Source: Methylacidimicrobium sp. AP8
Lineage (GTDB): Bacteria > Verrucomicrobiota > Verrucomicrobiia > Methylacidiphilales > Methylacidiphilaceae
DNA length: 64,000 bases
Direction of reading: 5' to 3'
Assembly (NCBI RefSeq): GCF_903064525.1
Contig: NZ_LR797830.1
Coordinates: forward strand, 1,364,001-1,428,000
Under the pieces are notes generated by a model. That model worked only from the letters and a program-made list of their open reading frames with translations, was not told where the DNA came from and made no database searches. The translations under genes were made by a program, and so were the position numbers. Of this stretch, positions 43,996 through 57,527 are shown in pieces (the first letter of the stretch is position 1; each line of letters opens with the position of its first letter).

Positions 43996-45603
43996 ATGGC
44001 TCAGCTTTCGACGCAATACGATCCCCTGCCCAAGCCGACGAATCGGACGATCCCCTGCGGAGGAAAGGGGGGCTTCGCCCTGTTCGGCTTCGCGGTCCTC
44101 CTCGGAATTCTCTACACGGCGGTCCACTTTTTCCGGGACCTCTCCGGCTCCCGGCCTCTGGCCTTCCTGCCGTTCGTCCTGCTGGCGGTGGCCCTGCTCA
44201 CCGCTCTCTTGTTCGAGTTCGTCAACGGCTTCCACGACACGGCCAATGCGGTGGCGACCGTCATCTACACCCGCACCCTCCGCCCCGGGACCGCCGTCAT
44301 CTGGTCGGGGAGCTGGAACCTGCTCGGAGTCCTCGCCTCTTCGGGAGCCGTCGCATTCAACATCGTCGCTCTCCTGCCCCCCGAGCTCGTCCTCCACGTC
44401 AGCAGCCAGACCGGATTCGCCATGATCTTCGCCCTGCTCTCCTCGGCGATCCTCTGGAACCTCGGGACTTGGTACCTCGGGCTTCCCTCTTCGAGCTCGC
44501 ATACGCTGATCGGCTCGGTGATCGGCGTAGGGCTGGCCAGCCGGCTCTTCTCGGGCCGCGGGAGCCTGTCGGGCATCGACTGGGCGCAGGCGGTCAACGT
44601 GGGGAAGGCGCTATTGCTCTCGCCGTTGATCGGATTCGGCATCGCCTGGCTTCTTCTCGTCGCCGCCAAGGCGCTGGTTCGCGACCCGCGGCTCTACCGC
44701 CCGCCGCAAGGCGACGAGCCGCCTCCTCTCTGGATCCGCTCCCTCCTGCTCTTGACCTGCACCGGAGTCAGCTTCGCGCACGGCTCCAACGACGGGCAGA
44801 AAGGCATGGGGCTCATCATGCTCATCTTGATAGGAGTCGTCCCCACCGTCTATGCCCTTAACCATGCCATTCCGGAACATGAGACCAGGCAGATGCTGAC
44901 CCAGACCGAGGAATGCATCCGGATCCTCGACCGCTACGCGCCGCCCGCAGCCGTTTCCGAACCGGATCCCGCGAACCGAGCGAGGGCCTTTATCCGGAGC
45001 CGGAAGCTCGAGCCGGAGACCATCCCCGCGATCCGGCAGCTTCTCCGCGATGTTGCCGTCCAGCTCCGCTCCTCCAAGTCGTTTGCGGAAGTGCCCGCCG
45101 GCCAGGTCGCCAACATCCGGAACAAGCTTTTCGTCCTGGACCAGTCGCTGCATGCGCTCACGACATCGCGCCAGGTCGGCCTGGGCGTCGGCGACCGGGA
45201 GGCTCTGACGGCCTATTGCCAAAGGATGAGTCGAGCCATCCAGTTCATCCCGCCCTGGGTCAAGGTGGCGGTCGCCCTCGCCCTTGGCCTAGGCACGATG
45301 GTGGGCTGGAAACGGATCGTTGTCACGGTGGGGGAGAAGATCGGAAAGGAGCACCTCACCTACGCCCAAGGAGCCGCCGCCGAGGTGACGGCGATGAGCA
45401 CGATCGGTTTTGCCGACCTCTTCGGCCTCCCTGTGAGCACGACTCACGTCCTCTCCTCGGGGGTAGCGGGAACGATGACCGCCAACGGCTCCGGGCTCCA
45501 GTGGGGCACCGTCAGAAGCTTGGCGGCGGCCTGGCTTCTCACCCTGCCGGCATCGATCCTGCTTTCCGGTCTGCTCTTCAGCCTCCTGCGCTGGTGGGGC
45601 TGA
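43996..45603 (+). CDS. PiT-family inorganic phosphate transporter
   Basis: A 535-aa integral membrane protein with the duplicated PiT signatures: FEFVNGFHDTANAVATVIYTRTL in the first half with GLPSSSSHTLIGSVIGVGLA, and VSFAHGSNDGQKGMGLIMLILIG with LPVSTTHVLSSGVAGTM in the second half. A central soluble loop of about 140 residues (about 295-425) separates the halves. It takes up phosphate, usually as a metal-phosphate complex driven by the proton gradient. The IS1202 insertion lies 78 bp upstream and may affect its expression. Confidence 0.93.
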   Translation: MAQLSTQYDPLPKPTNRTIPCGGKGGFALFGFAVLLGILYTAVHFFRDLSGSRPLAFLPFVLLAVALLTALLFEFVNGFHDTANAVATVIYTRTLRPGTAVIWSGSWNLLGVLASSGAVAFNIVALLPPELVLHVSSQTGFAMIFALLSSAILWNLGTWYLGLPSSSSHTLIGSVIGVGLASRLFSGRGSLSGIDWAQAVNVGKALLLSPLIGFGIAWLLLVAAKALVRDPRLYRPPQGDEPPPLWIRSLLLLTCTGVSFAHGSNDGQKGMGLIMLILIGVVPTVYALNHAIPEHETRQMLTQTEECIRILDRYAPPAAVSEPDPANRARAFIRSRKLEPETIPAIRQLLRDVAVQLRSSKSFAEVPAGQVANIRNKLFVLDQSLHALTTSRQVGLGVGDREALTAYCQRMSRAIQFIPPWVKVAVALALGLGTMVGWKRIVVTVGEKIGKEHLTYAQGAAAEVTAMSTIGFADLFGLPVSTTHVLSSGVAGTMTANGSGLQWGTVRSLAAAWLLTLPASILLSGLLFSLLRWWG

Positions 45604-45606
45604 ACC

Positions 45607-45645
45607 CGAAAGGGGGATCCGCCCGGGCGGGCGTTCCCCCTTTCG
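45607..45645 (+). terminator. Candidate hairpin terminator after the PiT gene
   Basis: CGAAAGGGGG and CCCCCTTTCG form a perfect 10-bp stem around a GC-rich loop, 4 bp after the transporter stop. There is no clear T-run, so it could also be only an mRNA-stabilising hairpin. Confidence 0.55.
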
Positions 45646-45671
45646 CGTCCGGGCGGGAAACACCGGGCTTA

Positions 45672-47383
45672 GCCCCCATTTCTCACCAGTACGAGCTTTC
45701 GGGCGAGAGAGGTGCCGATCGAGTCGCTTGCGAGCAGTTCCGGCCGCGCAGAGCTCTTCGTGAGGCAGGATCGAGCAAGATTTTCATTCGATTTGCCTTA
45801 ACGCGAGCGCTGCAAAGCGCAAAAAGCCGGTTGTGGAGCAAGGCTCCGCCCGATCGTAGGCTTTGCGGAAGGAGAAGAGGTGGGGTTTTGATACCTGCTC
45901 AACAACGCAGCACTCGGAAGACGTGGGTAAAGAGGCTCTTCCAAGGATAGGCGCTGCTCATCGAGAGGAAGACGCGGCGGACGCTGACTCGGACCAGCGT
46001 GCCGATCTTAAAGAGCTTGAGCCGGAGGGTGTCGACCTGGGCCTCGGCCCAGTCCGTTCCTCGCAGAGCCAGCCGTCGCAGCGCTTCGACCAGGGTGTAA
46101 GCGAGAGCCGAGAAGTAGAGGCGAAGTTGGTTGCTGGCCATTTGCGCGGTCGAGAGCCGGTCGGCAAAGAGGTGGAGTTGTTCCTTGATCCGATTCTCCA
46201 TGTCGCCACGAGCACAGTAGAGCTTCTCGTAAAGGTTTTGGGCGGGCCACTCCTCGGTGGAGAGAGAGGTCACGACAAAGCGCGGATTCTCCCCTCTTTC
46301 CAGGCACTCGGCTTTGGCGACCACCCGGCGCTCCCTCGACCAGCTGCTCAAGGTGCGGTAGGCAAACTCGGTAAAGAAGCGGGCCGGCTTGCCGCTCGAC
46401 TCGTGCAGACGACGGGCTTGCTCCATCGACCCCTGAATGGTCCGGCACAAGCGCTCGTTGCGGGCCAAGCCGAAGAGGTAGTCGACTTGATGGGCTTCGC
46501 ACCAAGCCATGATCTCTTCCCGGCAGAAGCCCGAATCGGCCCGGAGCACGATCCGGACTCCGGGCCAACGGGTACGGAGTTGTTCCACGATCCGGCTCAC
46601 CTCCGTAAGGGAGCCCGCCGACGCATCCTGGTTCGATGGCCGAAGCCGGACGCCAAGGAGTTGATCGCCAGCAAAGATGTAGAGCGGCAAATAGCAGTAG
46701 GAGTCGTAGTAACCATGGAAGAAGCGCTCCGGCTGATGTCCGTAAAGGGGGATGTCGGTCGCATCCAGATCGAGCACCACCTCCTCAGGGGGCTGGGGAT
46801 GCGATTGGAGGTAGAGATCGACCAGAAGACGGTCGATCGCTTCGGCCGAGTAGTCGATCTTTTGGTAGCGCTCGCTTCGACCCACCAGTTCCAGCCGGTT
46901 GAGCGTGCTCTTGCCCGCCAGATCCTCTTCCAGATCGCTTTTCCCGCTCAGGAGAGCAACCAACGGATCGGTCCGCAACTGCTCATGGTCGTTGAGGTCT
47001 TCGTAGCCCATCGCAATCCCGAAAATGCGCTGGGCAAGCATCTCCCGTACCCGATGCACAATGCGTTTCGGATGGCGTCGATCCACGAAGCAACCCTCTA
47101 ACCGTCTTAACAAACCGATCTTCCGATCCGCTTCCCGCAACAGAATTGCGCCCCCATCGCTGGAGATCCGACCCGCGGTAAATCCCGCTTCCACCCGTCG
47201 CGAAAAATGATCTGTAAACGCAAAAGTCTCTTGGCTACACTCTGTCAGGGAAGGCCGTTTCTTTTTCCTGGTTGTAGTAACGTCTTCTTAACGCACTTAT
47301 ACCAGGGAAAGACGGCCTTTCCTATGCCCTTTTGCCGGATTTTTTGCCTTCCGCTATGCCTGCCATTGGTGAGAAATCGGGGT
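45672..47383. mobile_element. MITE-like ends enclosing an IS1380-type element
   Basis: The outer ends are GCCCCCATTTCTCACCA (45672-45688) and TGGTGAGAAATCGGGGT (47367-47383), inverted repeats matching at 15 of 17 positions and flanked by TA on both sides. They resemble the ends of MITE copies A-C (ATTTCTCACAA). An IS1380-type transposase fills the interior. The simplest reading is an IS1380 element inserted in a related MITE, but the inner IS boundaries (roughly 45.8 and 47.36 kb) could not be fixed. Confidence 0.6.
45899..47194 (-). CDS. IS1380-family DDE transposase
   Basis: A 431-aa transposase. EVVLDLDATDIPLYGHQ carries the first Asp and IVLRADSGFCREEIMAWCE the second, and NPRFVVTSLS and YCARGDMENRIKEQLHLFADR the later Y/E region with the catalytic Glu, as in the IS1380 group. 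The GTG at 47194 is used, but conserved frame text (ETFAFTDHFSRR) continues upstream without an obvious start, so the N-terminus may be about 20-30 residues longer. The sequence is otherwise intact. A 5' remnant of a second copy is at 23999-24418. Confidence 0.9.
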   Translation of the reverse strand: MEAGFTAGRISSDGGAILLREADRKIGLLRRLEGCFVDRRHPKRIVHRVREMLAQRIFGIAMGYEDLNDHEQLRTDPLVALLSGKSDLEEDLAGKSTLNRLELVGRSERYQKIDYSAEAIDRLLVDLYLQSHPQPPEEVVLDLDATDIPLYGHQPERFFHGYYDSYCYLPLYIFAGDQLLGVRLRPSNQDASAGSLTEVSRIVEQLRTRWPGVRIVLRADSGFCREEIMAWCEAHQVDYLFGLARNERLCRTIQGSMEQARRLHESSGKPARFFTEFAYRTLSSWSRERRVVAKAECLERGENPRFVVTSLSTEEWPAQNLYEKLYCARGDMENRIKEQLHLFADRLSTAQMASNQLRLYFSALAYTLVEALRRLALRGTDWAEAQVDTLRLKLFKIGTLVRVSVRRVFLSMSSAYPWKSLFTHVFRVLRC

Positions 47384-47712
47384 TAGAGGCCCAAGTCTTT
47401 TTCCGCCTTCCTCAGAGAGCTCCTCTCCTTCTTGCCCTTGTTGTGGAGATGCTTCTTGGCGTTCTTCTCTTCCTTCCTGGCGGCGTGCTCCGACTTCTTC
47501 TCCTGTTTCTTGACGTCGTTTTGCGCCTTCTTCTCCTCCCCCTTCCCTTCGTTTTCCGCCTTCTTTTCCTCTTTCCGGGCCTGGCTTTCGGCCTGCTGCT
47601 CGAGTCCGGACGCCGAGGGCATTCCCTGCGCCCACGCCCTTCCCGAGATCCCGCACCCGAGACCCAGCAACGCGCCACCGATCACGAACCGCGACAGTAC
47701 GTTCGCTTTCAT
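47383..47712 (-). CDS. Small secreted lysine/glutamate-rich protein
   Basis: A 109-aa protein with an N-terminal signal peptide (MKANVLSRFVIGGALLGLGCGISGRAWA, cleavage after AWA likely; the Cys may instead suggest a lipoprotein) and a mature part of repeated charged helices such as ARKEEKKAENEGKGEEKKAQNDVKK. It is probably a periplasmic coiled-coil or helical protein of unknown role. Its TAA stop is formed by TA plus the first A of the MITE-like element at 47383, as for two other genes in the window. Confidence 0.68.
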   Translation of the reverse strand: MKANVLSRFVIGGALLGLGCGISGRAWAQGMPSASGLEQQAESQARKEEKKAENEGKGEEKKAQNDVKKQEKKSEHAARKEEKNAKKHLHNKGKKERSSLRKAEKDLGL

Positions 47713-47961
47713 TCTGCTCCTGCCGCTCCGGAAGGGTTGATTCTCGGATTCTTCTCCCGAAGAACCCGCTGCTCGGCACCTCGCCCTCCTCGGCGGAAGC
47801 GCTTTCCCGGAACGGCTTTCCTTCGTATGAACTCTGTCCTACCCGTTGTCAAACCATCCCCCGTTCCGCTCCTTCCTTGACGAAGGGGAGAGAAACCTGT
47901 TTGCTTGATAGCCTATCCTTGGTTCGGGCCGGTTCTGCGCGGAATCGGCCGGCGGAAGCAA

Positions 47962-48044
47962 GCCGGCGTGGCGGAATGGCAGACGCGCCAGACTCAAAAT
48001 CTGGTCTCGGCAACGGGGTGTGGGTTCGAGTCCCTCCGCCGGCA
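47962..48044 (+). tRNA. tRNA-Leu (CAA anticodon)
   Basis: The acceptor stem is GCCGGCG with CGCCGGC. The anticodon stem CCAGA/TCTGG carries loop CTCAAAA with anticodon CAA. A variable arm of class II length (TCTCGGCAACGGGG region) and a T arm with GGTTCGAGTCC follow. The discriminator is A. CCA is not encoded. It sits at the edge of the CRISPR region. Confidence 0.93.
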
Positions 48045-48768
48045 CCCCTGGAACTGGGCAGGTTCTCCCTGGGGGCCTTTCCCTTCCCTCACACCCGCTG
48101 AACGCACGTTCAGGCAAGGAAGAACAACTCCATGAACCGTTAAGCGGGTTTTGTAGGGGTCTCCCGGATTAACCGGGTTTCCAGCAGAATTCCGATTCCA
48201 TTTTTCCTCTGGTAATCTCGATAGATTCCTTAGATCCTTCCCGAACTGGCGCGTCGCTTCCCTTCCCTGCGCCAACCGGCGCATAGGAACTCCGGGAAAA
48301 CGACCAAGCACAAAGAGGAATCTCGGCCGGAAATCGAGGAGTTCCCGGCCGTGATGACCAAGCGGATGCACGCGGAAATCCTCCGCGTCTCGATCGGAAC
48401 GATCGACAACTGGACGGCGGGAGGCTCCTCAGAGCTTTCCGGCCGACGCGGCGCCCGGTTCATCTACCCCCGCTCTTCCTGTCCTTGCTCGGAGCCGAAA
48501 AACAAGACCCAGGTTCTGAATGGCCGCCGATACAACCCGGGGCCCTTTTTCCGCCGACGCGAAGGACATTTACCTGGTCGATGACGCCTTAGCTCTTGGA
48601 CCGTACCCGCATGAGCGGATGGCGCCGCGAGAACCTGGGCCGACATTACGCTGAACAGATCGTTTGCATCACGCAACCGGAGGGAAGACTACATCCGCCC
48701 TCCGGTATTTGGCACAGAACTCCACAGCCGGAAGCCGATAGGCCTGGCACAAACTGACCTCATGCGAT
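48045..48768. other. Region between tRNA-Leu and the distal CRISPR end, no clear gene
   Basis: About 720 bp. A short plus-strand frame near 48351-48584 (MMTKRMHAEILRVSIGTIDNWTAGG and on) looks superficially like a helix-turn-helix start but has no conserved continuation. I see no tRNA 3'-end duplication that would mark an integration site, and no terminator. Confidence 0.45.
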
Positions 48769-50798
48769 GTGCCAATCGATCAGGCCTGCGCCGACCCGAA
48801 CCGCCTCGATCCGCAGATTCATACGCATTTGGTTGTGGGTGTCCGTCGATCAGGCCTGCGCCGACCCGAACCGCGGGTCATCGCCGCGCTCAAGTCGGCA
48901 GCCCTGCTGTGTCCGTCGATCAGGCCTGCGCCGACCCGAACCGCGGCCACCGGTGACCGGCTTCACCCTGGCCTGCAGGTGTGTCCGTCGATCAGGCCTG
49001 CGCCGACCCGAACCGCAAACGCTGCTGGTCAAAGACTTAAGCGCCTTTATGTGTCCGTCGATCAGGCCTGCGCCGACCCGAACCGCGCAAGCAGTCCACC
49101 GACGGCTCCTGGCGCTCACGACGTGTCCGTCGATCAGGCCTGCGCCGACCCGAACCGCACACCTGGGCCGAGAGGCCATTGGGCGCATCGACGTGTCCGT
49201 CGATCAGGCCTGCGCCGACCCGAACCGCGGGTCATTGCCGCGCTCAAGTCGGCAGCCCTGCTGTGTCCGTCGATCAGGCCTGCGCCGACCCGAACCGCCG
49301 AAGAGACGAAGGAGAAGGAATGTGTCCAGCAAGCGTGTCCGTCGATCAGGCCTGCGCCGACCCGAACCGCCACGTGCCGTCCCTAACCGGATATTGCCAT
49401 ATGCGGTGTCCGTCGATCAGGCCTGCGCCGACCCGAACCACAGCCTGTACGCCTGCGGGTTTGAGAAAGCGTTTGTAGTGTCCGTCGATCAGGCCTGCGC
49501 CGACCCGAACCGCTGGTGAGCTTCCGCGCGAATCGCTCGCGGGGCCGATGTGTCCGTCGATCAGGCCTGCGCCGACCCGAACCGCCCGCGCGCCCGTGAT
49601 TTCCACGTGCCAGCCGCCGAAGTGTCCGTCGATCAGGCCTGCGCCGACCCGAACCGCACCCGCCCCCAAGACAGAAGAACCGCCCACGAAACGGTGTCCG
49701 TCGATCAGGCCTGCGCCGACCCGAACCGCGCGATGTCCCTGTACGCGATGGTCCCGCACATGTGTGTCCGTCGATCAGGCCTGCGCCGACCCGAACCGCG
49801 TATCGGACGACGAGATGCATACCGCCCGACCCTCGTGTCCGTCGATCAGGCCTGCGCCGACCCGAACCGCAGACGGTCTGACTATCGGGCGGTACCTCGT
49901 CAACTGGGGTGTCCGTCGATCAGGCCTGCGCCGACCCGAACCGCATCCTACGGGGAAACCGCTTAGAGGTCCTCTCGAGTGTCCGTCGATCAGGCCTGCG
50001 CCGACCCGAACCGCTCCCGGCGTACCGTCCGGCCCTCGATACAATACCGAGTGTCCGTCGATCAGGCCTGCGCCGACCCGAACCGCACGGAACCTGCGGC
50101 GGAATATACCACGGGCACGAGTGTCCGTCGATCAGGCCTGCGCCGACCCGAACCGCCTGGAGCGATCGGAATAACATTGAGAAGCTCCCAGTGTCCGTCG
50201 ATCAGGCCTGCGCCGACCCGAACCGCCCCGGCGTACCGTCCGGCCCTCGATACAGTACCGAGTGTCCGTCGATCAGGCCTGCGCCGACCCGAACCGCTAA
50301 AGGCTGAACAAGAACGCGCGCAAAAGTGGTATGTGTCCGTCGATCAGGCCTGCGCCGACCCGAACCGCTCGTCACGTTCTTCATCTTACTTCGTCTCCGT
50401 CCAGTGTCCGTCGATCAGGCCTGCGCCGACCCGAACCGCCCGCAGGGACCTGTATAAACGCCCCGCTGCTGGAAAGTGTCCGTCGATCAGGCCTGCGCCG
50501 ACCCGAACCGCGGACTCCATAAGGCGCAGTTGATCCGAGATTATCTCGTGTCCGTCGATCAGGCCTGCGCCGACCCGAACCGCGCGACGGGGAAATGGTA
50601 AGGAATCATGAATACAGGTGTCCGTCGATCAGGCCTGCGCCGACCCGAACCGCGCTGGTAGCGCGGTTTCAAAACATCGTTCCGTTCAAGGTGTCCGTCG
50701 ATCAGGCCTGCGCCGACCCGAACCGCACCAGGTCGGGCGCGTCGATGACCCCCGTCAGCCTAGTGTCCGTCGATCAGGCCTGCGCCGACCCGAACCGC
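48769..50798 (-). CRISPR. CRISPR array, type V-B, 29 repeats and 28 spacers
   Basis: 36-bp repeats that read on the plus strand from GTGTCCGTCGATCAGG to CCCGAACCGC, spaced every 70-74 bp with spacers of 34-38 bp. The first unit (48769) is degenerate (GTGCCAATCGATC) and the one at 49406 has one change in its last bases. Transcription is inferred to be on the minus strand, so the crRNA repeat ends in GACGGACAC next to its spacer. The degenerate end is then leader-distal, with the leader between cas2 and 50799. Two pairs of spacers are nearly identical: 48875 with 49229, and 50015 with 50227. Confidence 0.97.
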
Positions 50799-50984
50799 CG
50801 CCGCTTTGTAAGCATTTGCAATACAACCGCTCCTAGGACAGATGCGAGTGCGGATCTTCGCGGCGCACCTGTCTCGTTTGACGTTGCTCTTCCGGAAACA
50901 ACATGTTTCTCATAGTCAGCGCGTTGTAAGGATGCGAGCATCTCTTGGGGCCCTCTCCGCCACCTCCACGCTCGCCTCCCGATT
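50799..50984 (-). promoter_or_regulatory. CRISPR leader region
   Basis: About 185 bp between the predicted tracrRNA and the first leader-proximal repeat. It is less GC-rich than the array and should contain the array promoter and adaptation signals. I could not place confident -35/-10 boxes for the array. No ORF with conserved features is present. Confidence 0.55.
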
Positions 50985-51089
50985 TCAAAGAACTTGCGCG
51001 GTTCGGCGCAAAACTGATCGACGCCAGGTGCTATACCCATCGAAGGGAGAGACACGTACCTGGCGTTCCGGCCCCCTCTAGGGGCCAAA
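50985..51089 (-). ncRNA. Predicted type V-B tracrRNA
   Basis: Read 5' to 3' on the minus strand. A 5' hairpin (GGCCCC/GGGGCC) comes first. The stem CGCCAGGU (51066-51059) pairs with ACCUGGCG (51030-51023). Inside the stem, GUGUC (51056-51052) can pair with the crRNA 3' end GACAC. Directly after the stem, UCGAUCAG (51022-51015) pairs with the crRNA repeat CUGAUCGA. Then UUGCGC-CGAACC-GCGCAA followed by GUUCUUU resembles a terminator and also contains the complement of the repeat 5' part (CGAACCGC). This order (stem, inner and outer anti-repeats) matches the known Cas12b tracrRNA plan. It lies between cas2 and the leader, in the cas direction. Confidence 0.85.
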
Positions 51090-51095
51090 CTCCAT

Positions 51096-51123
51096 CTTTA
51101 CACAGATCCGCCCCGCTGTCAAA
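51096..51123 (-). promoter_or_regulatory. Candidate promoter of the tracrRNA
   Basis: On the minus strand, TTGACA (51123-51118) and TAAAGA (51101-51096) are separated by 16 bp, placing a start near 51089 just before the first tracrRNA hairpin. The -35 box overlaps the end of cas2. Confidence 0.65.
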
Positions 51124-51409
51124 CAACTACCACACCACCATACTGCTCCGGGAGCGAGTGTCCGATCACCGTCGCCGCCTTCCGTGCCTCTTGCTCGCTT
51201 GCCCCGAGGTCCAAGATCACCGCCTGATCTTCGCTCAGATTCATCTGCTCCTCGAGCTCCGACTGCAGTCGGACACGATCGATGTCCTGCAGGACGCAAA
51301 AGAACACCGAGAGCTGCCAAGCTTCGCCATATCCTTTGAGAACCTTATGGACGCGCCGCAGACGCTTTGGATCCCGAATGTCATAACAGACTAGGTAGCA
51401 GCGACGCAT
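51119..51409 (-). CDS. cas2: CRISPR-associated endonuclease Cas2
   Basis: A 96-aa Cas2 protein: [40 protein letters not shown], with the conserved YDI-x-D strand and the ferredoxin-like fold. It forms the structural dimer of the Cas1-Cas2 integrase that inserts new spacers. It lies 16 bp after cas4-cas1, in the usual order of V-B loci. Confidence 0.95.
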
Positions 51410-51425
51410 CGATTCCTCAGCACCG

Positions 51426-53144
51426 TCAGCGAGTGGTCAAGAAAGCCGGAGTCGGAATCTCCCCGACGAACCAAGCGGCTATCATTCGCGCGTGAAGGAC
51501 GATCATCCGCCGATAGCTGAGGCGATACTCGAACACCGGATGAGTAACCTCCGTGTCCATCCTGCGTCCGTATGCATCAAAAAAAGCTCTGCGCCCCGCG
51601 TCTGTAAAAGAGCAACCGGCTGCCGTGCGCAGGAAGTGTCCCTCCGTCAACTCCCTTCGGTTGAAAGCCGCGATAGCCACGGAGTCGGCGATCAAGGGCC
51701 GGAACGGCTCCATCACGTCCAGGGCAAGAGCGGGTCGGCCCGGCTTTGAGGTGTGAAAGCCACCAATCGATGGCTCGAGTCGAGCAACCCGAAGCGCCGC
51801 GACACACTCATGCGTGAGCATCGCGTAGCCCATCGAGAGGCAGGCGTTTATCGGGTCGGGTGGCGGGCGGCGTCGCCGCCCGTTTGCTTGGAAGTCGGTC
51901 GCAAGCGGCGTTTTTAGCATCCCCGCGAAATGGGCAAAGTAGATAGCGGCCGCCTGCCCTTCATGCCCGCGGAGCGCATCGAGAGAGCCGGCGGAGGACG
52001 CGCCCTCGGCTTCTCGCAGCAAGCCCATCGAAACGGTCGACGGCAGTGAAGAATGGTTCCGCATGAGCAGCGTTCGCTGGTTCAGGATCTTGGCAGCCAC
52101 AAGCGAGCGCGAGAGATCGAGGCAGGCATCCGGCCGGTCGAGCTTTCGAATCTGCGCCCGCCGAACCTCGGCGCTAACGGAGTCGAGCGGGTCGATCATC
52201 GCGACCATCCGACCCGCAGCGGAGAGAAAGGCAACCGGGATTCCCCGGTCGGCCAAAACATGGACCGCCTGGGTGCTCATCTGCACCGAACCGAGTAGAG
52301 AGAGACTCTCGACATTCGCCAGAGGGAGGGTCTTGATCGTTACGCCGTTCTTGTCCGTGACCGTCAGCGTCATCCCATTCACGCCGATCTTCGTACCCTT
52401 TTGCTGGGCAACGACCTGAATGCCTTCATGGCGCGGCGGCCAGATTTTCCTCGGCGGCAGCTTCTCCGGCACGGCCGGCAAACGTTGGTGATTCACCTCA
52501 TCCGGCAGGCAGATGGGTTGCAGGGAACATCGGAGGCAACGCGGGTCGTTCACCAGAGGCAGGGGCCTTGGCCCCCTAGCGCACTCCTTCGCCGCCTCCA
52601 GGACTGCCAGGGCCTCAGCCTTGAGATTCGCGTCAACGGCCAGCTTCAGACGAAGCTTCTCCTCTGCGTAGTAGAGGACAGCCTCCGAAACCCTGTAGCC
52701 GTTTTCCTCAAGAAGCACAGCCTGGAGTCCGACTTGAATCCGATCGGTCGGCCAAGCCTCCTTGACCGAAAGAGGAGGATTGTCGGCCTCTCCTGGATCG
52801 TCCGGCGGCGGGGCCATGGTCGTCCGCTTCGGCCGGCCTTTGCGGTATTCAACAGGAACGGCAACCTCTCCTGCGATCTCTGCGATGTCCAGCGTCGCGG
52901 TAAAGCCGAGCTTCAAGCTTGTGAGGGCAAGGCTTCGCACCACTCGGGGCCGATCGGGGTCGGCGGTCGACCCGTCCTGATCGTCCCGTGCCGCGCTGGG
53001 CTTATCCACCCTGCGATGAAGCGCGACGCCCTTCTCGGTGTCGCTGCTCGGCAGGAAGACGCCCTCGACCTGCATGTAGTAAAAAAGGCGCGGGCAATAA
53101 GCATATTCGGCGACGTTTCGCGCCGACCAAAGGCTCTCGTCCAC
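51426..53144 (-). CDS. cas4-cas1: Cas4-Cas1 fusion, spacer acquisition
   Basis: A 572-aa fusion. Residues 1-215 are Cas4, a RecB-like nuclease with an iron-sulfur cluster: C17 in [10 protein letters not shown], the PD-(D/E)XK set near D86 and E99-Y-R-K102, and the C-terminal cysteines C203, C206, C212 in [11 protein letters not shown]. From about 240 on is Cas1 ([19 protein letters not shown]), with catalytic E395 in [15 protein letters not shown]464 in [11 protein letters not shown] and acidic residues in [13 protein letters not shown]. Cas4 trims and selects PAM-bearing prespacers and Cas1 integrates them. The same fusion is known from type V-B and type I-G. It ends 16 bp before cas2. Confidence 0.95.
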
Positions 53145-53222
53145 AACGCCGCTCCGCTTCTCCGTCGCTTATCGGCGTCCTCCCCGAAAGGGGGGCGCAT
53201 CCTCCTTACGAACAACTGCAAA

Positions 53223-56200
53223 TCAACTATCGAGACCGTAACTCCGTAGGAGCAACCGGACCACCCGCGACTGAACAGCGTTCCAGTATGCCCGGGTAGG
53301 CCTCCAGATACCCTTATCCAAGCCATCGGCTGAAGGATCCCGCCAGAGGTTCTCGACTTCTCGAGTGCCCGTGCGGCCTTTATCGGCGGGCGGAGAGGAA
53401 GCGCCGCCGTCGACCGGAAGCTTCCTCTGTATGCCCGCAAAAGCCGCAGATCCCTTGATCTTATCCATTATAGGCTCCGACGTGCCGCCCCTACAGGGCA
53501 CATACCACCATCGCCCGGCCCAATCCGGGTCAAGCAACGCCCGAAGGCCGATGTTGGCGGCAGCATTCAAGTCGGCCTGGAGCGCTGGTTCGGAGACGCC
53601 GGCGAGATCCGCGTCCTGCGGGGGCGCTGCGAGGAAGAGATCGCCGCCTTGTTGAGGAACGAGCACGGTGGATGGGAAGAGGAAGAGCTTTTGATCCGCT
53701 GCAAGCTTCTTCAGCCGATCGGCAAGTTTGATAAGGAAACGGTCCCTGGGATCAATTCCGTTCTTGGCCAGCCTCTTCCGCGCCGCCTCGACCTCCCGCT
53801 GCCACCGGCGGGCATGGAGAAATTGGTCCGCGGAAACCCCAACGCATCGCATTCCAGGGAGTCCGGTGCGGCTACACTGACGGCTTGTGTAGTTAGCGGG
53901 AACCTCCAGGAAACAAAGGCCGTAAAGCTGGCATTCCTCGGAAAGGTACTTCTGCACTTTGGCGCTGGACCATTCCATCAGGAGACGGTTCTCCCGCCGC
54001 AGGCGCAGGTCATCGGGACGGTAATGCCGGAGCGACTCGACGACGACCGCATGACAGGGGGCATCCACCGGATTGCGCGGGCGTTCCGGCAGACGGGGAC
54101 GTTTTGCCGCGCAGCCTCGCTTCGGGATCTTGATGCGTCCCGCACCCAGCGCGGCCTCGACAATTCGGCTGGCCAATTGCTTAACCCTTTGTTCGCGGAG
54201 GCGGTCGCGCACATCCAGCAGGCGTCGATGGAAATTTGCGAGGGCATCGTCGCCCTTCTCCGGAATGTTCTTGCGCAAGTTCTGCGGCTCGGGCCGCATC
54301 TTGAAGGCCTTGAGGATCTCATAGAGTTCCGAGATCCTGTTGATGCGGGTGAGCGAAAGCCCGCCGACATATCGGGCGGCGGCGCGCGCCTCCTTCTTGC
54401 GTTTCAGACAGCGCGGGGCGATCCATCGCTTCAGCTCCTTGAGCCGGTCGACCCATTCCGCGTCATCCTTCTTCCAGCGATCAGACCAGGATCTGGACCA
54501 GTCAGCGAGATCGGTGCTGGCCAATCGTTCCGCATACGGTTTGAAAGCGTCCTCCAGTTGTTTCCGCAGCCCTCGCCGTGCCGCCGGACTTGCGTCCTTT
54601 TCTTCCGGGATCGGCACCTCCGATAATCCTCGCTTCTGCCACTCGTGGGCCGCCCACTGATCCTTCCAGCCCTTGGCTGTGAACAGGTCGTGCCAAAGGA
54701 TGAGGGTTTGCGTAAGGAGTTCAACACGACCAGCCTGGTCGAGCTTCTCCGTGGCCCCGCCCGGCAGAAGCTTCTCGGTCGAGGCGAGGTTGAAGGCGAT
54801 GCGCGCCCTATCGGCATGGCGGCGCAAAGCTTGCCTGAATGTCCTGACCGCTTCGGACATCAGCTCGTCGACCCGATGAGGCAGGGCGTCCTGCGGATCG
54901 GTGCGGTCACGGCCAAGGTCCTGTTCCCATCGAAGGACCTTGTCCGTTTCCTGGCGAGCCGCCCAACGGGCGGGTTCCTCCTCCCCTTGCAGCTTGAGTA
55001 AAAATTGCCGCTGCAAACGGGCCCAGGGGGCTGGATGCTCGGATCCATCAGGGAGCTTATCGGGTCCGATGCGGCGGTAGACGTGCGTCCTGGGTTTGCC
55101 GTCGCTTCCGGTCTGTTTGACATGGAGGTACATATCGTCAGCACCGGTTCCCCTGGCGCCGAGCCTGCGGATCTGCTCCGCAAACGCATCGGGCGAAAGG
55201 GCTTCCCATACGGCACAGGCGGCGGCGAACCGATGGCCGAGATCCACCGCCAGAAGGCGAAGTCCCGGGAGCCGCGAAAGCATCAGCTTGGCGAGCTGCT
55301 TGCGGCCCTTGTTTGCGGCGGCGTTGGGGTCACACTTTCCTCTCGGGTTCAGGGCAAACCCGAGGGACCGCGCATACGAGATGAACGGTCCCTTCGGAAG
55401 CAACCGCGCCGAGAACGAGAGGAACCAGGGCAGACGGCTTCGCGCGGCTTGAGCGCGCTCTCTATCGCCCTTTTCCTCGAGCTTGGCAATCCGTTCCAAG
55501 CCCGCGCGCGGCGCTTGCAACCGCCCATTCCAGTCTTTCTCCTGGAAGACGTTCATGACGACCACCGGGCCGACCGCTTTCGATGCCGCCTTCCCCAGCC
55601 GATCCGCGCGCGACACCTTCGGAGCGTTTGCGTCAGGCTCGTGGTTGAGCCCTAGATCCGCCGCGAAACGCTTGGAGGACCAGCGCAGATCCACGTCGTC
55701 CGCACTTCTTCCGTCCCACAGGCGCATCTGGAGGCCATGGAGGTTCGGATGGCCGCCCTTCTTCCGCCTAGCGGCCCTGCCTTCCTGCTCCGCCTGGCGT
55801 GTTTCCTCCTTGCGGTTTTCATGGATGGCAAATTTGATCCTCCACCGGGACTTCCCGAATTCGCAGAAGACCGGATGTCGGAGAGCGTCGGGATGTCGAT
55901 ACGCCGGCACCCTGAATCGCTTCCGGTCGTGCTCCGCCGTGCTGCCCTCCACGTAATCCACTAGGATCGATGGATCGGGCTTCCCGTCGCGCCCGCGCCA
56001 CACACAGGAGGCTTCGTCCGCTGCAAGATCCTCGAAGAGTTGGATGTCGCCGAACTTTTCCCCCTTCAGCTCATCCTGCATCTGCCGAGCGGCGATGATC
56101 CGCTCCTCCTCCGTGCCGCTGCGCGTCCCCGCCCATGCTTTGACGACAGGCTCCCAGCCCGCGATCGCCCGCCTTCGAATTCGGTAGCCGGAGTCGACGC

Positions 56201-57527
56201 CCGCTCCGGTCGCCGCCGCTCGGTCGGCACAGTACCGATCGAGCCACGCCTTTGCTTGCGGTGCTCGATCCTGCAATCGTACGAGAATTCTGGCGGCCTT
56301 TTCAAACTCCCGTCGCCGTTGTTCGGCTTTTTTGATCCACGAATGCGCCGCCGACACCCGCCGGGCGGCGTGATCGAGCATGACCGAGTACTCATCGGTG
56401 TGATCGCGATCGGTCCGGAAAGGCATCCCGCAGCATTCCTCAACCCATTGGCGCAGATCCTGCATCCATTGCGGCTTTCCGAGCCCTGCCGACTTCCCCT
56501 CCTTCTTTCCGGCTTCTTCGCAAAGCGTCTTCTGCATCCTCTCGATGTCGGTCCGACTCGGATGTTCCGGTAGGCTCTTGATGGCGATGTACCCCTTGGA
56601 AGGCCGACCCGTAGACCAGCCGATGCCTCTAACTAGACCGTCGAAATCCACGGTTGTTCCGCAGACCAATTTCGCCATCTCCTCGACCAGTTCGGCTTTG
56701 GGACGGCTGCCGAACCGGCTCAGATCGGCCTTCGCCAACAGGCGCAGGTGCCGGCCGATCTTTCCGCAGTCGCTTTTTCTTCCTGCTCCGAAATTGGTGC
56801 TGATCCACCGGCGAGCGCGGACACTAAATTCCGTTTCCTCACCGAATACAGCGGCGTCGTCGGATTCGTCGCCGACAGAGAGAGACGGGGTCTCCCTATC
56901 TTGATCTTGGACGGGTAGGGTGAGGTACTCTGCTTCCGGCCCGAAGAAGTCCATAATGGTGGACTGAGCGTAATGCCGATCCAGGCCTGCCAGTTCTTTG
57001 CTCCGTTTATCGAAGACCTCGCTCCGATTGACCCAGACCGCACCCTCTCGGAGGCGCGCTCCGAGGGACGGCTTGCAATCGCGCAACCACTCTTCGATCT
57101 CGTCCTTCGGGACACCCCGCTTTTCCAGAATTGTGCGGAGCGCTTTTTCGACCGCTTGCGCCCGCCGGTTGTCCTCTTCGGTTGCTCTGGCGACTATGTT
57201 GGGCGCCCCTCGCTCATCCTCGACGGTCAGCCACGATAGCGCCAGCAAGATCCGCCTGTTGCTCCGCTCCCGGTCTGTGGGTCGCCGCGCCGGCCTCCCC
57301 CCCTTCCCCGGCACATCAATATCGATGAGCGTATGGCAGAGACCTCCGCGGAGCGTCAGGAGCCACTCGCCGAACGCCTTGGCTCCCTTGTTGACCGCTT
57401 CGTGAGTCTTCCAGAGCCGGTCACGCCAGTCATCGCAAACGCTCCTATGACACGAAGGGCTCTCCGCGGCCCCGCGGCCGAGCCGAAGGGTGTAAGCCCG
57501 CTGGACCGGCGGTATGTCCTGCTTCAT
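53223..57527 (-). CDS. cas12b: Cas12b effector nuclease (type V-B), unusually long
   Basis: A 1434-aa single-protein effector; characterised Cas12b proteins are about 1100-1300. The N-terminus (QRAYTLRL, then DDWRDRLWKTHEAVNKGAKAFGEWLLTLRGGL) is Cas12b-like. RuvC-I is LLAVDLGHRFAAACAV (D762), RuvC-II VVVESLRHYRPDD (E1164) and RuvC-III ALQADLNAAANIGLRAL (D1319), all intact. YTSRQCSRTGLPGMRC (near 1213-1228) is the typical region after RuvC-II. Extra length is spread through the REC region and the C-terminus after about 1345. It would use crRNA plus tracrRNA to cleave DNA next to a T-rich PAM, if it is like its family. The 107-aa ORF upstream overlaps its ATG. Confidence 0.93.
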   Translation of the reverse strand: MKQDIPPVQRAYTLRLGRGAAESPSCHRSVCDDWRDRLWKTHEAVNKGAKAFGEWLLTLRGGLCHTLIDIDVPGKGGRPARRPTDRERSNRRILLALSWLTVEDERGAPNIVARATEEDNRRAQAVEKALRTILEKRGVPKDEIEEWLRDCKPSLGARLREGAVWVNRSEVFDKRSKELAGLDRHYAQSTIMDFFGPEAEYLTLPVQDQDRETPSLSVGDESDDAAVFGEETEFSVRARRWISTNFGAGRKSDCGKIGRHLRLLAKADLSRFGSRPKAELVEEMAKLVCGTTVDFDGLVRGIGWSTGRPSKGYIAIKSLPEHPSRTDIERMQKTLCEEAGKKEGKSAGLGKPQWMQDLRQWVEECCGMPFRTDRDHTDEYSVMLDHAARRVSAAHSWIKKAEQRRREFEKAARILVRLQDRAPQAKAWLDRYCADRAAATGAGVDSGYRIRRRAIAGWEPVVKAWAGTRSGTEEERIIAARQMQDELKGEKFGDIQLFEDLAADEASCVWRGRDGKPDPSILVDYVEGSTAEHDRKRFRVPAYRHPDALRHPVFCEFGKSRWRIKFAIHENRKEETRQAEQEGRAARRKKGGHPNLHGLQMRLWDGRSADDVDLRWSSKRFAADLGLNHEPDANAPKVSRADRLGKAASKAVGPVVVMNVFQEKDWNGRLQAPRAGLERIAKLEEKGDRERAQAARSRLPWFLSFSARLLPKGPFISYARSLGFALNPRGKCDPNAAANKGRKQLAKLMLSRLPGLRLLAVDLGHRFAAACAVWEALSPDAFAEQIRRLGARGTGADDMYLHVKQTGSDGKPRTHVYRRIGPDKLPDGSEHPAPWARLQRQFLLKLQGEEEPARWAARQETDKVLRWEQDLGRDRTDPQDALPHRVDELMSEAVRTFRQALRRHADRARIAFNLASTEKLLPGGATEKLDQAGRVELLTQTLILWHDLFTAKGWKDQWAAHEWQKRGLSEVPIPEEKDASPAARRGLRKQLEDAFKPYAERLASTDLADWSRSWSDRWKKDDAEWVDRLKELKRWIAPRCLKRKKEARAAARYVGGLSLTRINRISELYEILKAFKMRPEPQNLRKNIPEKGDDALANFHRRLLDVRDRLREQRVKQLASRIVEAALGAGRIKIPKRGCAAKRPRLPERPRNPVDAPCHAVVVESLRHYRPDDLRLRRENRLLMEWSSAKVQKYLSEECQLYGLCFLEVPANYTSRQCSRTGLPGMRCVGVSADQFLHARRWQREVEAARKRLAKNGIDPRDRFLIKLADRLKKLAADQKLFLFPSTVLVPQQGGDLFLAAPPQDADLAGVSEPALQADLNAAANIGLRALLDPDWAGRWWYVPCRGGTSEPIMDKIKGSAAFAGIQRKLPVDGGASSPPADKGRTGTREVENLWRDPSADGLDKGIWRPTRAYWNAVQSRVVRLLLRSYGLDS

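Follow-up and report, generated by a model that had tools for sequence, protein, structure and literature searches.

Read along the minus strand, the window (the whole stretch of 64,000 nucleotides of Methylacidimicrobium sp. AP8 DNA analysed here) carries cas12b, a cas4-cas1 fusion, cas2, a predicted tracrRNA gene and, after a leader, an array of 29 repeats, in that order, which together form a complete type V-B locus in a genome composed of one contig of 2.30 Mb. The cas12b gene (53223..57527, minus strand) encodes a protein of 1434 aa that matches NF033949 with 941.6 bits (cut-off 150) and the PADLOC Cas12b profile with 774.9 bits. The protein has a RuvC domain (PF22126, 67 bits), whose acidic residues were found by motif at D762 (VDLGHR), E1164 (VVESL) and D1319 (QADLNAAAN). 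The cas4-cas1 fusion (51426..53144, minus strand) matches Cas4g/Cas1g (NF049935) with 623.5 bits (cut-off 560), and cas2 (51119..51409, minus strand) is a clear match to PF09827 and to Cas2g. The features examined for type V-B, namely a Cas12b effector, the D/E/D residues of RuvC and cas4-cas1 with cas2, were all found. An identity as a scoutRNA, known from types V-C and V-D, was considered and rejected, as the effector matches Cas12b profiles and no Cas12c or Cas12d profile is among the matches listed. Judged from its sequence, the element between cas2 and the leader almost certainly encodes the tracrRNA of a seemingly intact type V-B CRISPR-Cas system, which is a known type and no new kind of system.

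Regarding the distribution of the effector, one scan of bacterial genomes identified Cas12b relatives in Nitrospira, Deltaproteobacteria, Kiritimatiellae, Phycisphaerae and others, and the window's branch is also present in genome G223, which belongs to the same phylum; searches of viruses, plasmids and phages found none. Two genomes of the same genus (L033 and L034) carry the other of the two V-B branches compared here, with a Cas12b approximately 18% identical, and for this reason V-B loci may move horizontally within this group of genomes.

The CRISPR array (48769..50798, with the minus strand in crRNA sense) consists of 29 repeats, each 36 nt long, separated by 28 spacers. The repeats are nearly identical, and the terminal one (48769-48804) is degenerate. 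The repeat was sought in the other genomes of the family and is absent from them. Two pairs of spacers are near-identical (50015-50050 with 50227-50261, and 48875-48908 with 49229-49262), each as if drawn from variants of one target. Two scans of viral contigs found no target of either pair, and a search of the rest of the genome with the first pair gave nothing either.

The tracrRNA gene and its relatives

The tracrRNA gene is placed at 50985..51089 on the minus strand, with its 5' end taken from the promoter and its 3' limit, which is approximate, from a hairpin. This is where the original prediction had put a type V-B tracrRNA, between cas2 and the array, and both the covariance model (E 1.2e-15) and the cognate pairing described below bear it out. 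The RNA, all of whose parts lie on the minus strand, begins with a 5' hairpin, stem-loop 1 (GGCCCCUAGAGGGGGCC, 51070..51086), which was absent from that prediction and shows compensatory changes in four of its five pairs. It is followed by stem-loop 2, with the 5' arm ACGCCAGGU at 51058..51066 and the 3' arm ACCUGGCGU at 51021..51029, as given by the fold and by compensatory changes in helix 2. This stem had been described as 8 bp long (51066-51059/51030-51023); it is real, and has 9 bp (51066-51058/51029-51021). The other elements first described are likewise all present, with coordinates that had slipped by 1-2 bases, those of the 3' arm included. Stem-loop 2 contains the short, first anti-repeat GUGUC (51051..51055), which is complementary to the 3' end of the crRNA repeat, GACAC, as had been proposed, and an inner hairpin, CCC-UUCGAU-GGG (51036..51047), which forms helix 3 with 100% of cells paired and compensatory changes in two of three pairs. 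The second anti-repeat has a proximal part, GUCGAUCAG (51014..51022), that pairs with the repeat segment CUGAUCGAC and includes UCGAUCAG (51021-51014), and a distal part, UGCGCCGAACCGC (50998..51010), that pairs with the 5' half of the repeat. The last element is a weak terminator-like 3' hairpin (50993..51012, with the sequence TTGCGC-CGAACC-GCGCAA at 51011-50994), the formation of which excludes pairing of the distal anti-repeat. When 51089-50985 was folded, its structure was more stable than those of all 200 dinucleotide shuffles (z -3.3).

By duplex energy alone, the anti-repeat site ranks 8th among 4944 tiles of 50 nt in a GC-rich window, and this is unremarkable. A reading of the sequence by itself therefore could not decide, and we relied on a comparative model, which does. 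The covariance model was built from eight relatives in other genomes, with the window copy left out. With this model the window copy is located at 51087-51012 of the minus strand and scores 69.9 bits (E 1.2e-15, over a 78-position match), and this is the single match in the whole genome of 2.3 Mb. Chance complementarity in GC-rich DNA, to which the other seven 50-nt tiles that equal or beat the site by duplex energy might point, is already refuted by such a match to a conserved RNA family in the expected place, and its probability is negligible.

Apart from the window, all nine members of the branch with readable repeats and locus ends carry a similar RNA. Eight of the nine were recognised by eye and the ninth, L044, by the covariance model alone; the L044 copy, unused in training, was found with an E of 3.6e-7, and of the repeats compared, its own divergent one is the best fit for its anti-repeat. 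Over 11 copies, compensatory changes on both sides occur in 10 of the 14 stem pairs, and pairing is seen in 96% of cells, as compared with 26-60% if the structure is slid, with shuffles nowhere near either figure; the alignment was fitted to the model's own structure, so these covariation counts are biased in its favour. The locus, its complementarity, the conservation and the covariation are in this way established by sequence. Comparison with covariance models had been suggested as a check, and the model of relatives supplied it; Rfam 15 gave nothing relevant in a search of 44000-56000. The alignment and the model provide a working RNA family that Rfam lacks.

As the window copy scores lower than most of its relatives in the covariance model, and a decayed copy is known in another genus of the family (L053) that lacks cas12b, it can be asked whether the element is a decayed remnant of a tracrRNA that no longer works. 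Against this stand two anti-repeats that both match the local repeat, intact stems, open cas genes, the residues of the RuvC motifs and 29 near-identical repeats, and we consider a remnant very unlikely. The window tracrRNA is real and evolutionarily conserved, a further V-B tracrRNA that is ordinary in kind.

Pairing with the repeat and ends of the transcript

In order to measure pairing, the duplex energy of each anti-repeat with each repeat was calculated for 10 loci and evaluated by permutation, with row and column effects removed. Cognate pairs are stronger than non-cognate ones for the whole duplex (p 3e-5), for the proximal part (p 9e-5), for the distal half downstream of the proximal part (p 1.2e-4) and for the first 12 bases of the repeat (p 0.003), each over the 10 loci. 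By raw energy, the cognate repeat ranks first in five loci (the window included) and second in three, fourth for L040 and sixth for L042. The claim that the stem is followed at once by an anti-repeat complementary to the repeat is confirmed by the proximal result for GUCGAUCAG. In the window the duplex takes in nearly all of the repeat, interrupted by a 4x4 bulge region and a gap of 5 nt. To call the third match, with the 5' part of the repeat, unusual, as had been done, is not supported: this match is the distal end of a single long repeat:anti-repeat duplex, an ordinary feature, since Bacillus hisashii Cas12b has been described with a long bulged duplex (PMC11246509), and the distal cognate pairing is significant as given above.

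That the third match falls within the 3' hairpin is true of the window, but the overlap is not conserved among the relatives. Co-folding, which had been proposed as a check, was run: the full repeat pairs along the anti-repeat and opens the 3' hairpin, whereas the last 18 bases of the repeat leave the hairpin shut. A switch between the 3' hairpin and the distal anti-repeat was considered as a conserved mechanism and rejected; it holds in co-folding of the window, but the 3' structures of the relatives differ widely, and the exclusion is therefore treated as a local property of the window.

The predicted 5' end of the RNA follows a -35 box, TTGACA (51117..51122, minus strand), which overlaps the cas2 stop codon, and a -10-like TAAAGA (51095..51100, minus strand) at a 16-nt spacer, with three of six consensus bases. 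The promoter originally proposed is thus present and plausible and its place is kept in most relatives, but the -10 is poor and a promoter scan did not report a promoter for the tracrRNA. Most relatives have a TTGAC(A)-like -35, on or near the cas2 stop where the RNA comes after cas2, and a -10 that ends 4-7 bases ahead of the first hairpin. The terminator-like hairpin is also present, but it is a weak candidate terminator, with a stem of 7 bp, of which four are GC pairs, followed by TTCTTTG. Because of the poor -10 and the weak terminator, the tracrRNA may be longer than drawn or may be read through into the array.

Possible read-through of this kind is also what could be expected if the element belonged to the array, as a structured leader or as its 5' untranslated RNA, with the working tracrRNA encoded elsewhere. 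This reading is highly improbable, more so than that of a remnant, as the complete genome has one match to the covariance model and the element's anti-repeats track the repeat across loci. In L044, moreover, the tracrRNA sits between cas12b and cas4-cas1, apart from the leader, and the two are therefore separable. A tracrRNA in its own right is the reading retained here.

In several relatives a TCTTTGACA-like motif lies just 3' of the tracrRNA 3' hairpin, and the window has TTCTTTGAAAT at this place (50992-50982, minus strand). The motif might act as a second element of a promoter, or it might belong to the 3' end of the RNA.

The second V-B branch and the leader boxes

GUGUC is invariant in the nine of nine aligned members of the window's branch, whose repeats end in GACAC, and therefore no covariation can be counted there. 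In contrast, the other V-B branch (L023-L030, of the same phylum), in which Cas12b is approximately 20% identical and which is missed by the covariance model of the window's branch, has repeats that end in GGCGG and CCGCC as the short anti-repeat. The arrangement is otherwise like that of the window, with a hairpin downstream of cas2, on the strand of the cas genes, a short anti-repeat in its loop and then a long anti-repeat. That GUGUC:GACAC in one branch is replaced by CCGCC:GGCGG in the other is evidence from nature for the importance of the short duplex. A third anti-repeat in the loop of a 3' hairpin was considered for the other branch and rejected: when this branch is read along the cas strand, the long anti-repeat comes after the hairpin, whose loop holds the short anti-repeat CCGCC.

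Repeated copies occur in this other branch. L025 (1283-1524) has three tandem tracrRNA-like units with a period of 95 bp, each with the CCGCC hairpin and a long anti-repeat, and L030 may hold two. The decayed tracrRNA and leader of L053 (10051-10127, minus strand; genome G042, of the same family as the window) have GTATC for GTGTC and CTATTAG for CGATCAG. They adjoin genes resembling another CRISPR type (possibly I-G, by eye), and a search of G042 for cas12b gave no match; this copy is evidently a fossil of a lost V-B locus.

Comparison of leaders revealed three GCTCGC-type boxes in the leader of the window (50799..50992, minus strand), at 50975-50970 (inverted, GCGAGC), 50939-50934 and 50849-50844 (ACTCGC), all on the minus strand. 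The box approximately 53 bp before the first repeat is conserved across both V-B branches. Most leaders have a second box at about -135 to -145 from the first repeat and the inverted third box 35-36 bp beyond it, at -170 to -181. Leaders with these boxes are those of L023-L048 as well as that of the window, and come from several phyla and from Cas12b branches that are approximately 20% identical. In 13 of 16 leaders, from both branches, CTCG lies no more than 1 bp from the common offset (the window's copy is 2 bp off), which none of 2000 rotations reached; there are close relatives among the 16 leaders, and the count therefore overstates their independence. In E. coli, V-B Cas4/1 and Cas2 were shown to insert spacers with a leader-repeat array, and the passages of that study consulted here mention no such leader box (PMC9419969). 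The boxes are a possible spacer-insertion or regulatory signal; more specifically, and with some doubt, we suggest that they might be an array-recognition signal for the V-B Cas4-Cas1/Cas2 complex or for a host factor in spacer insertion. If so, they would be a signal without description in the parts of the literature consulted. They offer a testable lead on V-B spacer insertion.

Proposed function and known systems

By analogy with characterised Cas12b systems, the following course can be proposed for transcription of the RNA, its processing by RNase III, the formation of a pseudoknot and the cleavage of DNA. The promoter overlapping the cas2 stop codon would start the tracrRNA, the two hairpins of which would be the scaffold gripped by Cas12b. 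The long anti-repeat (GUCGAUCAG, the 4x4 bulge and UGCGCCGAACCGC) would anneal along the repeat of the pre-crRNA, giving a long duplex that is probably a substrate of RNase III and would be trimmed. GUGUC of stem-loop 2 would then pair with the last five bases of the repeat, GACAC, closing a pseudoknot and positioning the spacer, and Cas12b with this dual RNA would cut matching invader DNA. With the tracrRNA and its repeat in hand, a matching guide RNA could be written and tested directly, and the tracrRNA is now confirmed by comparison for a branch of large Cas12b proteins touched by few studies.

The plan of a split anti-repeat, which the original prediction rightly ascribed to Cas12b guide RNAs, is published for type V-B and appears to include members of the window's Cas12b branch (PMC11423069). 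In that screen, 11 of 15 Cas12b orthologs have the order cas12b, cas1, cas2, tracrRNA and array, and the RNA has three stem-loops, with a bulge in stem-loop 2 that can pair with the 3' end of the repeat. For NiCas12b, removal of the bulge in stem-loop 2 sharply reduced editing, whereas truncation of stem-loop 3 did not (PMC11423069). Like the effector of the window, NiCas12b (Nitrospira sp., 1440 aa) and PhyCas12b (Phycisphaera, 1459 aa) are large Cas12b proteins (PMC11423069); the sequences of repeat and stem in their systems differ from those of the window. Judging by organism label and ORF length, two of the loci compared here are probably these systems or near-identical ones: L040 (Nitrospira, 1440-aa ORF) for NiCas12b and L048 (Phycisphaerae, 1459-aa ORF) for PhyCas12b. 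The stem of stem-loop 2 has 9 bp in the window and 6 in L040, and in L048, unlike in the window, cas2 precedes cas12b, and the tracrRNA is flanked by cas12b and the array.

The closest solved relative of the effector is the Cas12b of 1496 aa in PDB 9kln-9klq, 9kln being the best structure match with 970 bits. The Bacillus and Alicyclobacillus effectors are distant in comparison, with 75 bits to the 5wti chain. The dual RNA of BhCas12b, BthCas12b and AacCas12b nevertheless resembles that of the window in having a long bulged duplex and a short duplex of 5 bp within a pseudoknot; in Bacillus hisashii Cas12b the long one is a bulged LR/AR duplex of 30 bp and the short one has 5 bp (PMC11246509).
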